Below, piece after piece: positions 12,408 through 16,832 of a stretch of 49,604 nucleotides of DNA (position 1 is its first letter; every line of letters begins with the position of its first letter). A program made the translations under genes and the position numbers. Under the pieces are notes generated by a model that saw only the letters and a program-made list of their open reading frames with translations, was not told where the DNA came from and ran no database searches. Source of the DNA: Piscirickettsiaceae bacterium (GTDB taxonomy: Bacteria; Pseudomonadota; Gammaproteobacteria; Nitrosococcales; Methylophagaceae); NCBI GenBank assembly GCA_024685995.1, contig JAIBDY010000014.1:1-49604 (forward strand), read 5' to 3'.

Positions 12408-12812
12408 TTAATGATGGACGACGCGGGGTAACTCTTTCGCTTGTGCTAGCCATGATTCAACTTGGGATACCGAGGGCACTTGGCGAACGAGTTTTTTCTG
12501 TGCGTTCACATCAGCCATTTTTTGTTGTAGGTTTTCAGCATTACGCTGTGCTAACTCGGGTATGGTATCAACACCGGCACACTCTAACAGATCAGCATAT
12601 TGTGTACTCACACCTTTGATACGTGACAAATCTGCACGGTTAACCCATTCTAAAATTAATTTTTCACTGATGCTTGTTTTATCTGCGATGGCTTTACGTG
12701 CTTTCTTCTCACAACAAATTTCCAACAGTTTTTCTAAAGAGCGGATACCAGCTTCAGACAGTTTGTCAGAGTAGGCTGGGCCAATACCTTCAATATCAGA
12801 TAACTTTGTCAC
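12408..12812 (-). CDS. DUF4332 family helix-hairpin-helix protein
   Basis: A 134-residue cytoplasmic protein of two tandem helix-hairpin-helix-like units. The first is DIEGIGPAYSDKLSEAGI and the second is RIKGVSTQYADLLECAGV. Both carry the GIG/GVS hairpin that in other proteins contacts the DNA backbone. This layout matches the DUF4332 family, whose function is not established; DNA or RNA binding is an inference from the hairpins. It is monocistronic, with its own hairpin terminator. Confidence 0.82.
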   Translation of the reverse strand: MTKLSDIEGIGPAYSDKLSEAGIRSLEKLLEICCEKKARKAIADKTSISEKLILEWVNRADLSRIKGVSTQYADLLECAGVDTIPELAQRNAENLQQKMADVNAQKKLVRQVPSVSQVESWLAQAKELPRVVHH

Positions 12813-12998: not shown

Positions 12999-13430
12999 TT
13001 ATTCATCGACGTCATCAATATCAGATTGGCCGGAGATCCGACGGCGAATATGTGACCAAGACATGCCTGTGGCCAACACCGCGCTTAGGATAAATAGGCC
13101 AATATATGAAAAAATAGAGACGTTCTCAACGCCTAGCCAGCCGATATCGGTTAACCACCAGACGATAATGCCAAAAAAAGTGAAGGCTAATAACAGGCCA
13201 AAAAATCCCAACGACCTAAATGTTGCCCTGAGATAAATGGTCCAAGCGATGATAACAACAACACTGGACAAGGCAAGGGCAGGCGTGATGGCAAGCTTTT
13301 CGACAAATAGGGCTTCTTTTGCCCAATGATAGAGACTATAGCCACTTGGATTATAGGTCGCGTAAACGAGGATTAAAGCAAAGATCAGGCGGATGAAAAA
13401 ACTTAGCCATGTGAAATGATTATTAGCCAT
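12999..13430 (-). CDS. DUF6524-type four-helix membrane protein
   Basis: A 143-residue integral membrane protein with about four transmembrane helices (LSFFIRLIFALILVYATYN, LALSSVVVIIAWTIYL, GFFGLLLAFTFFGIIVWWL, SIFSYIGLFILSAVLATGMS) and an acidic tail (DIDDVDE). The opening F.WLSF.IRL.FAL.LVYATYNPSG.S matches proteins now grouped as DUF6524, of unknown role. It starts 34 bases after the GMC oxidoreductase gene on the same strand and may share its transcript. Confidence 0.78.
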   Translation of the reverse strand: MANNHFTWLSFFIRLIFALILVYATYNPSGYSLYHWAKEALFVEKLAITPALALSSVVVIIAWTIYLRATFRSLGFFGLLLAFTFFGIIVWWLTDIGWLGVENVSIFSYIGLFILSAVLATGMSWSHIRRRISGQSDIDDVDE

Positions 13431-13464: not shown

Positions 13465-14892
13465 TTAGTGTTGACTTAGATGTTCAGCTAGCCGTAATGA
13501 AAGCTGTACGATAGGAAGGGTAGGGTTATTATGTCCCCCCGTCGTAAAAACAGAAGAGCCGGCAATAAATAAATTTTTTGACCCAAAGACTTGGCCGTTA
13601 TTATCGGTGACGCCATAGCGAACGGATGTCGACATTCGTGTCCCACCCATATGATGGTTGCCGCCCATTATTTCTTGTTCTGGATAAGCATCACCGTCAT
13701 TCAGCATCCAACTATCCAACTGAAGGCGCCCAGCATCACCCGCCATCAGCCATGTGTTAAAGACCCTGACAGATTCTTTAATCGTTAACATATCCAAGTG
13801 AGACTTTTTCCAATGTAGCTGTACTTTTGGGATACCAAAAATATCTGTTTCCTGACTAAGCTGCACAGCATTACTAATGGTTGGTTCTTGTTCCCAAGCG
13901 GCTCTTAATTTAGCACCACAGATGAGGTTTTTTCCTGCCAGCGTGGCGACTTTTTTGCCGAGTGTTGGCGCCGCGCATAGTAAATCACGTACCATCGCTT
14001 TGGTTCGGCCGTCGTTAGGCGTATACGGTATGACTCTGAATCCACAATTTAAAATGCCAAGTTCTTTTTGAATGCGGCCTGACAGCGAGTAATGGCGTGT
14101 ATTGACTTTCCTCGTGTCGACGAGTGCTCGTCCTAAATTTAGATGTGGGTGCTCCATCCAATATTTTCCTAAAGGTAGGTTTTTGGCAAAGAAAGCCCCA
14201 GTATTTTTTGCGTCAAAATGCATCAGGAAACGACTGTTTTCAATGCCGCCCATGGCAAATACAAATTGGCTCGCATTGATCAGAATTTTTTTCTCAGAAA
14301 AGCTTTCAAAGTTCGCAGCGTGAATTGTGCCATCTTGGCCGTAAAGCTGAGTGAGGTTAGCATTTATAAATAGGGTGATTTTGTCGCTGTCGTTGAGCAA
14401 CTTTGAAAATTTATCTTTAAAGCGAACAGGGGGCGAAAATTGAAATGTTATGTCTTTGATATCAGCGTCATTGGTCTGTTCAGGCTCAAAGTCGTCTGGT
14501 ATTTCTAAGATTTCACAAGCGGCTGTTTTATATTTTTCTATCTCAGAAAAGGAAATCGGCCAATTATATTGCTCGCCCAAATACTGGCGTTGGAAATCTA
14601 TTTCTTCAAAGCTTCTACAGCGACCGCCCCAATGATTAGTGCTGCCGCCTAAATATCTCAGTCGAGCGGTGCGAAGGTCAAAGTAGGGGTCACCGATGAC
14701 GTCTCCTTGATAAATATGTTGAGATTCGCTGCTGTATTGATCTCCACCACCCTCAATTAACGCAACTGTTTTTCCCTTTTCAGCCAAGGTCTTGGCTATT
14801 GTAATACCCGCGGCCCCAGCACCAATAACACAAACATCATATTTTCTATCAGCAGGAAATTTGGTTTCTGCAAGGTGTAGATTAAACAGCAC
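13465..14892 (-). CDS. GMC family FAD-dependent oxidoreductase
   Basis: A 475-residue oxidoreductase of the glucose-methanol-choline family. The FAD fold is at residues 17-47 (YDVCVIGAGAAGITIAKTL, then VALIEGGG). LRYLGGSTNHWGGRC is the flavin-contact region, and HHMGGTRMS and GGHNNPTLP near the C-terminus supply the catalytic His and Asn. It has no signal peptide of its own. The GTG start at 14892 overlaps the TAG of a 41-residue Tat-signal micro-ORF (TAGTG), so the two are translationally coupled. The alcohol or sugar substrate and the electron acceptor cannot be deduced. Related membrane-bound enzymes use a small Tat-exported subunit and a cytochrome, neither of which is present at full size here. 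Confidence 0.87.
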   Translation of the reverse strand: MLFNLHLAETKFPADRKYDVCVIGAGAAGITIAKTLAEKGKTVALIEGGGDQYSSESQHIYQGDVIGDPYFDLRTARLRYLGGSTNHWGGRCRSFEEIDFQRQYLGEQYNWPISFSEIEKYKTAACEILEIPDDFEPEQTNDADIKDITFQFSPPVRFKDKFSKLLNDSDKITLFINANLTQLYGQDGTIHAANFESFSEKKILINASQFVFAMGGIENSRFLMHFDAKNTGAFFAKNLPLGKYWMEHPHLNLGRALVDTRKVNTRHYSLSGRIQKELGILNCGFRVIPYTPNDGRTKAMVRDLLCAAPTLGKKVATLAGKNLICGAKLRAAWEQEPTISNAVQLSQETDIFGIPKVQLHWKKSHLDMLTIKESVRVFNTWLMAGDAGRLQLDSWMLNDGDAYPEQEIMGGNHHMGGTRMSTSVRYGVTDNNGQVFGSKNLFIAGSSVFTTGGHNNPTLPIVQLSLRLAEHLSQH

Positions 14893-15017
14893 TAAAGGTC
14901 TTCTTCTTTCAGGAGCCAGCCATCTACGATTCTAATGCGGGGTTGCTTGGTTTTCATCCAGTTCAAAGAGGGTAAAAGAAAAACCAGTGTCCCTAAAATA
15001 AATGTCCGCCGATGCAT
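14892..15017 (-). CDS. Tat-signal micro-protein, 41 aa
   Basis: A small open frame on the minus strand. It starts with a twin-arginine motif (MHRRTFILG), then a hydrophobic core (TLVFLLPSLNW) and a short polar tail ending DGWLLKEEDL. AAAGGAAATGGAA precedes the ATG at suitable distance; an ATG six bases earlier sits too close to that site. The stop TAG overlaps the GTG start of the GMC oxidoreductase gene. The coupling, the ribosome-binding site and the Tat-like composition argue for a real product. It could be a stripped-down small subunit or a carrier that helps export the oxidoreductase; both are inference. It is too short for most gene callers. Confidence 0.62.
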   Translation of the reverse strand: MHRRTFILGTLVFLLPSLNWMKTKQPRIRIVDGWLLKEEDL

Positions 15018-15254
15018 TTCCATTTCCTTTGATTAATGTATTTTAGTGTTTTGAAATACCCAATAGCGATAGCGCGTTTGTTTAATACCGTGATTTCCTG
15101 ATTTTTATTCGTCCGTCCAATCTTTATAACTAAAATGAGGTAGGACGCTCCGCCGTCATCTGGAATGCAAGTATATGATGAGTTTAAGCTTCATCTGTTG
15201 TGTTCGCAACGTCTGTTGGTGAAGGGCACTACAGGTATCGCTTCACTATGAATA

Positions 15255-16832
15255 CTATTCCCACTCAATAGTGGCAGGGGGCTTACCTGAAATATCATAA
15301 GTGACGCGTGAGATACCTTCAACTTCATTGATAATGCGGGTGGAGACTAAGCCTAAGAAATTATAAGGTAGGTGTGCCCAGCGTGCGGTCATAAAATCGA
15401 TAGTTTCAACGGCGCGTAATGACACTACATAGTCGTAACGTCGACCATCACCCATGACGCCTACGGATTTGACTGGGATAAAAACAACGAAGGCTTGGCT
15501 GGTCTTTTCATAAAGATCATGTTTGTACAGCTCATCGATGAAAATTTTATCGGCTTTACGTAATAAATCCGCATATACCTTTTTGACTTCACCGAGAATA
15601 CGAACACCTAATCCTGGGCCTGGGAATGGGTGACGGTACACCATGTCATGGGGTAGGCCTAAGGCAACCCCCAATTTTCTAACCTCGTCTTTGAATAGCT
15701 CGCGTAGCGGTTCGAGTAATTCTAATTTCATATAGTCTGGCAAGCCGCCCACATTGTGGTGGGTTTTAATGACCTGTGCTTTGCCCGTTTTAGCGGCGGC
15801 AGATTCAATCACATCAGGGTAGATTGTGCCTTGGGCGAGCCATTTTACACCTTCGATTTTATTAGATTCTTCTTCAAAAACGTCGACAAATAAGCGGCCA
15901 ATAATTTTACGTTTGGCTTCAGGATCGTTTTCGCCGGCCAATGCTGCTAGAAAACGCTGTTCGGCATCGACGCGGATAACTTTAATCCCCATGTTTTTGG
16001 CAAACATCGCCATCACTTGGTCACCTTCATTTTCGCGAAGTAGACCATTGTCTACAAACACGCAAGTGAGTTGAGCACCAATGGCTTTGTGTAATAAAGC
16101 GGCGACAACAGAGGAGTCGACGCCACCAGATAAGCCTAGAAGAACATGGTCGGTACCAACCTGTTTCCGGATGGTGTCGATACTGTCTTCGATGATTTGG
16201 TCGGAGGTCCACAAGGTGTCACATTGACAAATTTCGGTTAAGAAGCGGGAAATGATGACTTGGCCTTGCAAGGTGTGCGTCACTTCAGGATGAAATTGCA
16301 CACCGTAAAAGCCTTTTTCTTCGTTAGCCATACCAGCAATAGGGGCGCTGTCAGTACTGGCAATCAGTTTAAAACCCTCGGGCAGTTGTGTGACACGGTC
16401 GCCATGGCTCATCCACACATCCAGCATGCCATAACCTTCGGCGGTGGTATGGTCTGCGATGTCGCGCAGTAGTTGAGAGTGGCCTCGAGCGCGGATTTGT
16501 GCATAGCCAAATTCACGGTGTTGAGAGGATTCAACGTGTCCACCCAATTGCTTGGCCATGGTTTGCATGCCATAACAAATCCCAAGGACGGGGACACCGT
16601 ATTCAAATACGGCTTGCGGTGCGACAGGGGCCGTTTCACCAATAGTGGAATCAGGCCCCCCGGAGAGAATGATGCCTTTGGGGGCAAACTCAGTAATCTC
16701 TGCGTCACTAATGTCAGGATCGCGTAATTCACAGTAGACACCCGCTTCACGAATTCTGCGTGCAATTAATTGGGTGTATTGTGACCCAAAGTCGAGAATA
16801 AGAATTCGGTGATCATGGATGTGACTGCTCAT
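15255..16832 (-). CDS. guaA: GMP synthase (glutamine-hydrolysing)
   Basis: Converts XMP to GMP using ATP and glutamine, the last step of guanine nucleotide synthesis in the cytoplasm. The 525-residue protein has an N-terminal class I amidotransferase domain, with nucleophile Cys86 in [11 protein letters not shown] and the His/Glu pair in [11 protein letters not shown]. The ATP pyrophosphatase domain carries [11 protein letters not shown], and the C-terminal dimerisation domain ends [12 protein letters not shown]. The length is the same as in E. coli. It follows guaB by 75 bases on the same strand, the usual guaBA operon order. Confidence 0.98.

Follow-up and report, generated by a model that had tools for sequence, protein, structure and literature searches.

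The small subunit of fructose and glucose dehydrogenases, about 18 kDa in size, is a Tat 'hitchhiker', and to our knowledge the Tat hitchhiker carriers known so far are folded subunits. The MelC1 caddie protein of Streptomyces tyrosinase is another Tat-carrying partner of a signal-less enzyme. NCBIfam family TIGR02811 (formate dehydrogenase region TAT target, FdhX) describes a small Tat-signal protein encoded beside a periplasmic redox enzyme; it consists of a Tat signal and a short conserved C-terminus with a tyrosine/histidine-rich motif. Also close to the case described here is the FAD-SLDH gamma subunit (PF12318; Burkholderia glucose, fructose and sorbitol dehydrogenases), the Tat-signal partner of a signal-less GMC oxidoreductase. 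Its body, about 130 residues long, consists of five helices, and the subunit belongs to a complex with a catalytic subunit carrying a 3Fe-4S cluster and a triheme cytochrome. In Burkholderia glucose dehydrogenase this 'hitchhiker' gamma subunit is needed for folding and secretion (PMC6719666). For NiFe hydrogenases and PaoABC, two further papers describe a signal-less subunit that is exported by complex formation (PMC10924467; PMC4273604).

The locus analyzed here likewise pairs a signal-less GMC oxidoreductase with a Tat-type partner. However, whereas the hydrogenase and PaoABC carriers are full enzyme subunits and the gamma subunit has its helical body, the partner is here a near-naked signal peptide encoded by a micro-ORF. 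In the window (the whole stretch of 49,604 nucleotides that was analyzed), the locus comprises the following features:

14892..15017, minus strand: micro-ORF of 41 aa with a Tat-type N-terminus and a conserved C-terminal tail
15025..15030, minus strand: Shine-Dalgarno-like AAAGGA, 7 nt 5' of the ATG at 15017
15006..15011, minus strand: twin-arginine codons (within HRRTFILG); both arginines are invariant in a 33-sequence alignment
14964..15005, minus strand: hydrophobic core TFILGTLVFLLPSL
14895..14930, minus strand: C-terminal tail IVDGWLLKEEDL, with the family signature [ND]G-W-[LIV]-L-[KR]-x-x-D
14890..14894, minus strand: TAGTG stop/start overlap, in which the micro-ORF TAG (14894-14892) and the GMC GTG share one G
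13465..14892, minus strand: GMC oxidoreductase of 475 aa with a GTG start (Pfam GMC_oxred_C)
14632..14634, minus strand: codon of His87, which aligns with the FAD-linking His105 of Burkholderia glucose dehydrogenase

A preliminary description of this region had named, with no strand given, the ribosome-binding site, the 41-residue ORF with its twin-arginine motif and hydrophobic core, the overlapping TAG and GTG, and the oxidoreductase; all of these elements are present and lie on the minus strand. The description had overlooked the conserved C-terminal W-x-L-x-x-x-D tail. The micro-ORF (15017-14892) translates as MHRRTFILGTLVFLLPSLNWMKTKQPRIRIVDGWLLKEEDL, followed by the stop codon. A second in-frame ATG at 15023 would give a product of 43 aa, but the start at 15017 is the likelier one because AAAGGA (15030-15025) lies 7 nt before it. 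The peptide has zero matches in Pfam and NCBIfam, neither of which contains a family spanning its entire length, and no description of it was found in open-access PMC papers.

Homologous loci were identified by scanning a three-sequence GMC alignment against one genome per species; this yielded 79 loci. The loci were collected on the basis of their similarity to the GMC, with Mesorhizobium over-represented, and are thus not independent events; the argument rests on phylum breadth (Pseudomonadota, Nitrospirota and Myxococcota) and on a clean clade boundary. Two loci are cut by contig ends, leaving 77 that are testable. The preliminary description had made its reading depend on a conserved micro-ORF upstream of orthologous oxidoreductases, and a short ORF combining a twin-arginine motif with a W-h-h-x-x-x-D tail at its C-terminus was found just upstream of the GMC gene at 74 of the 77 loci. 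The three exceptions have masked bases over the N-terminus (L063), tail and signal in different frames (L072), or no such ORF (L062).

The peptides (77 aligned sequences, including those of the window, L004 and L032) are 38-78 aa long, with a median of 54. The residue at position +2 after the arginine pair is F, L or I in 69/77. The search pattern for the tail required W and permitted D, N or E at +6; this position is D in all 77 peptides, L occupies +2 in 75, and G, which the pattern did not impose, precedes the W in 69. A diverse alignment of 33 sequences has four invariant columns, namely R, R, W and D. The C-terminal W-x-L-x-x-x-D tail is the strongest sign that the peptide has a role beyond that of a signal.

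Comparison of synonymous and non-synonymous changes, a check put forward with the preliminary description, gave median dN/dS values for unsaturated pairs of 0.24 in Mesorhizobium and 0.21 in Halomonas/Vreelandella; individual pairs with higher values (Nitrospira, 0.75; Pelagibacteraceae, 0.43) are few and based on little sequence. Substitutions in the micro-ORF are thus strongly purifying (dN/dS ~0.2). Over the last 12 codons in Mesorhizobium, second positions differ by 1.4% versus 25% for third positions. A detector combining the Tat motif and the tail fires at 73/76 GMC starts versus 1/578 starts of other genes at these loci. A chance ORF is ruled out by the conservation, the dN/dS values and these controls, and the micro-ORF is a real protein family without an earlier name.

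The TAGTG arrangement is part of a wider layout: the micro-ORF stop overlaps or abuts the GMC start codon at 65/73 loci, with an overlap of four bases at 28 and of one base at 32, and a gap of zero at five. Stop/start overlap at most loci could also be expected of a leader or coupling ORF, for which the act of translation matters and the product does not; with conservation acting at the amino acid level (dN/dS ~0.2) and with an arginine pair and a C-terminal motif that are universal over three phyla, this explanation is extremely improbable.

The 475-aa partner belongs to the GMC superfamily (PF05199, E 7.5e-19, above the cut-off; GxGxxG motif present). Its FAD Rossmann motif (YDVCVIGAG) starts at about residue 18 with no signal peptide ahead of it, as the preliminary description had held. 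The closest solved structures by sequence are the Burkholderia glucose dehydrogenase alpha subunit and the fructose dehydrogenase large subunit, and the modeled fold of the L047 homologue resembles the fructose dehydrogenase catalytic subunit (Z 40) and Burkholderia glucose dehydrogenase (Z 35); DET catalytic subunits are thus the nearest solved folds to this GMC. His87 is invariant in 37 GMC homologues, and the role of its counterpart His105 in linking FAD is described for the Burkholderia enzyme (PMC6719666). Judged from this alignment, the GMC probably holds FAD covalently via His87. DET-type catalytic subunits are recognized by a C-x5-C-x3-C motif that binds a 3Fe-4S cluster, whereas none of the 37 homologues contains a cysteine cluster of the form C-x4-6-C-x2-4-C. 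Since His87 is kept but the Fe-S cysteines are missing, the GMC is a relative of the DET complex family that lies outside it, and its electron acceptor must differ from that of its DET-type relatives. The protein is probably a sugar or alcohol oxidoreductase.

The association between peptide and GMC is specific. A profile of the peptide searched against 398 genomes of the phylum gave eight full-length matches, all directly upstream of this GMC; the remaining matches examined either are confined to the signal portion of larger proteins or are due to chance, such as one in genome G240 (L126), where a GMC is absent and a stop codon falls within the match. A GMC profile searched against an equal number of genomes shows a score gap (>550 bits versus <360 bits), with a micro-ORF at nine of the ten high-scoring GMCs and at none of the 20 lower-scoring ones examined, which belong to other subfamilies. 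GMCs with a micro-ORF group together in a maximum-likelihood tree, in a single supported clade (98/97) to which the GMC of L062 also belongs. The GMC copies found to lack a peptide (in G290 (L186), L066 and L062) all lie beside another GMC copy: G290 and L066 contain tandem paralogues, one with a micro-ORF and one without, and in L062 the second GMC is at the cut edge of the locus, its upstream region out of view. Since these peptide-less GMCs are second copies, they would fit either one carrier shared by both copies or a second copy retained in the cell. The tandem GMCs of L073 each have their own peptide. No fusion of the peptide and GMC genes was seen among the GMC N-termini inspected.

The idea of a minimal hitchhiker, raised in the preliminary description, gains support at the sequence level from a micro-ORF that is coding, conserved and restricted to one GMC clade whose predicted fold is nearest to that of enzymes with a Tat small subunit. 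The micro-ORF is accordingly read here as a minimal Tat hitchhiker for the GMC, that is, a separately encoded signal peptide with a short docking tag, with a probability of roughly 75%. A twin-arginine signal peptide would be made as a separate protein of 40-60 residues, and the observed stop/start overlap would couple its synthesis to that of the GMC. The GMC would fold in the cytoplasm and take up FAD, probably covalently via His87. The tail of the peptide, predicted to form a beta-hairpin whose Asn/Asp-Gly turn precedes the invariant Trp, would then dock on the folded GMC, and the twin-arginine signal would bring the complex to TatBC for export of the folded, signal-less enzyme. Where a signal-peptidase site is lacking, as in the window, the uncleaved signal would probably stay in the membrane and tether the GMC on the periplasmic side.

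The peptide has the feature expected of a Tat substrate, a hydrophobic core behind a twin-arginine motif. All 20 hosts tested have TatC, and the genome of the window encodes one TatC and two TatA/B-family proteins, their genes lying together. Library Tat models match only 4/33 peptides, weakly. For TIGR02811 the weak matches number 4/33 (best E 0.0029); its C-terminal motif is unlike G-W-x-L-x-x-x-D, and it goes with formate dehydrogenase, whereas the partner of the micro-ORF in the loci examined is a GMC. The peptide has no match to PF12318, and homology to the hitchhiker body of that family was rejected because profile comparison aligns the signal region only. The micro-ORF also differs from the gamma subunit of the DET complex in having no recurrent gene partner except the GMC, which itself has no Fe-S cysteine cluster.

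An AxA-like cleavage site is found in 46/77 peptides and is missing after the hydrophobic core in 31/77, including that of the window, where the AxA survey revealed no clear site. Some peptides may thus be released, while others may be membrane anchors. The 31 peptides without a site would also fit a peptide that serves as a membrane anchor only, through a single N-terminal helix, the GMC being translocated otherwise or not at all. This is very unlikely, given the site in the other 46 peptides, an arginine pair with a hydrophobic residue at +2, which is the Tat pattern, and a GMC that bears no other export signal.

In AlphaFold2 models of the L047 and L040 loci, which are in frame and were modeled as fusions with the stop codon read through, the tail forms a hairpin in both cases, with strands at residues 26-29 and 32-35 around an N/D-G turn; tail pLDDT is 50-56 in both models, and because these values are low the hairpin is a lead only. 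The more detailed proposal of a detached signal peptide, made of a Tat signal and a docking hairpin of about 12 residues, that acts in trans on a folded flavoenzyme and in certain gene clusters possibly serves two GMC paralogues per carrier, is considered rather probable. A mixed MAFFT alignment had suggested that the tail is a mimic of the 'GRxxLxxWL' segment within the GMC itself; this was rejected after a profile comparison (probability 0.4%, E 0.14).

The conservation of the tail goes far beyond the apparent needs of export alone, and this could point to a folding or flavinylation chaperone with a Tat-like or membrane-targeting N-terminus that matures the GMC as MelC1 does tyrosinase. One peptide weakly matches MelC1 (E 0.066), and in the related glucose dehydrogenase, the small subunit is reportedly required for both folding and secretion (PMC6719666). 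However, a chaperone domain would have little space in the roughly 20 residues that lie outside the signal, and the arginine pair is invariant although it would not be needed for maturation alone; MelC1, for its part, is larger than the peptide, has a copper-transfer role and gives that single marginal match only. A chaperone is therefore unlikely.

If the hitchhiker reading is true, a signal peptide can be encoded apart from its cargo, without a folded carrier domain to connect the two. A carrier reduced to a signal and a short tag would define the minimum needed for piggyback export and would be a ready-made tag for exporting folded proteins. The family would also identify a missed class of small genes, and it predicts that a widespread, uncharacterized GMC clade, SAR11 copies included, works outside the cytoplasm.

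The GMC is absent from the 28 other genomes of the window's genus (0/28), and in the tree the window's copy clusters with those of Pelagibacteraceae and with others that are mostly alphaproteobacterial, a placement suggestive of acquisition by transfer. Viral contigs gave no match, and among plasmid orthologues only those of Azospirillum and Halomonas stand out. On the Halomonas sp. PA16-9 plasmid (L032), the GMC is split over two frames, through a broken gene or a sequencing error, and the micro-ORF is intact despite the split. On the Azospirillum thermophilum plasmid (L031, 4778-4966), the micro-ORF ortholog is annotated as hypothetical with a start inside the signal peptide, so that the twin-arginine motif is removed in this, the one annotated record examined.

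In the window, the 3' end of guaA (15255-16832) is near the micro-ORF/GMC unit, 366 bases before the GMC. The corresponding distance is 293 bases in L046, and guaA is also present in the L054 locus; guaA ends are known integration hot spots. Downstream of the GMC are a DUF6524 gene (12999-13430, minus strand), 34 bases after it on the same strand, and a DUF4332 gene (12408-12812, minus strand).

Within about 5 kb on each side, no third gene that would name a substrate recurs across genera, nor does a cytochrome-like neighbor family, the neighbors being only partly assigned to families. Glycan-type neighbors occur in some lineages only. The SAR11 copies (L033, L038 and L049) adjoin genes for a short-chain dehydrogenase and an FAD_binding_4 oxidase. 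In L033, genes for a UbiA prenyltransferase and a GT87 glycosyltransferase are also close by, and these neighborhoods are reminiscent of DprE1/DprE2-type polyprenyl-sugar chemistry. In L062, the GMC is located within a sugar-nucleotide cluster encoding a dTDP-sugar isomerase, a nucleotidyltransferase, an epimerase and an amine oxidase.
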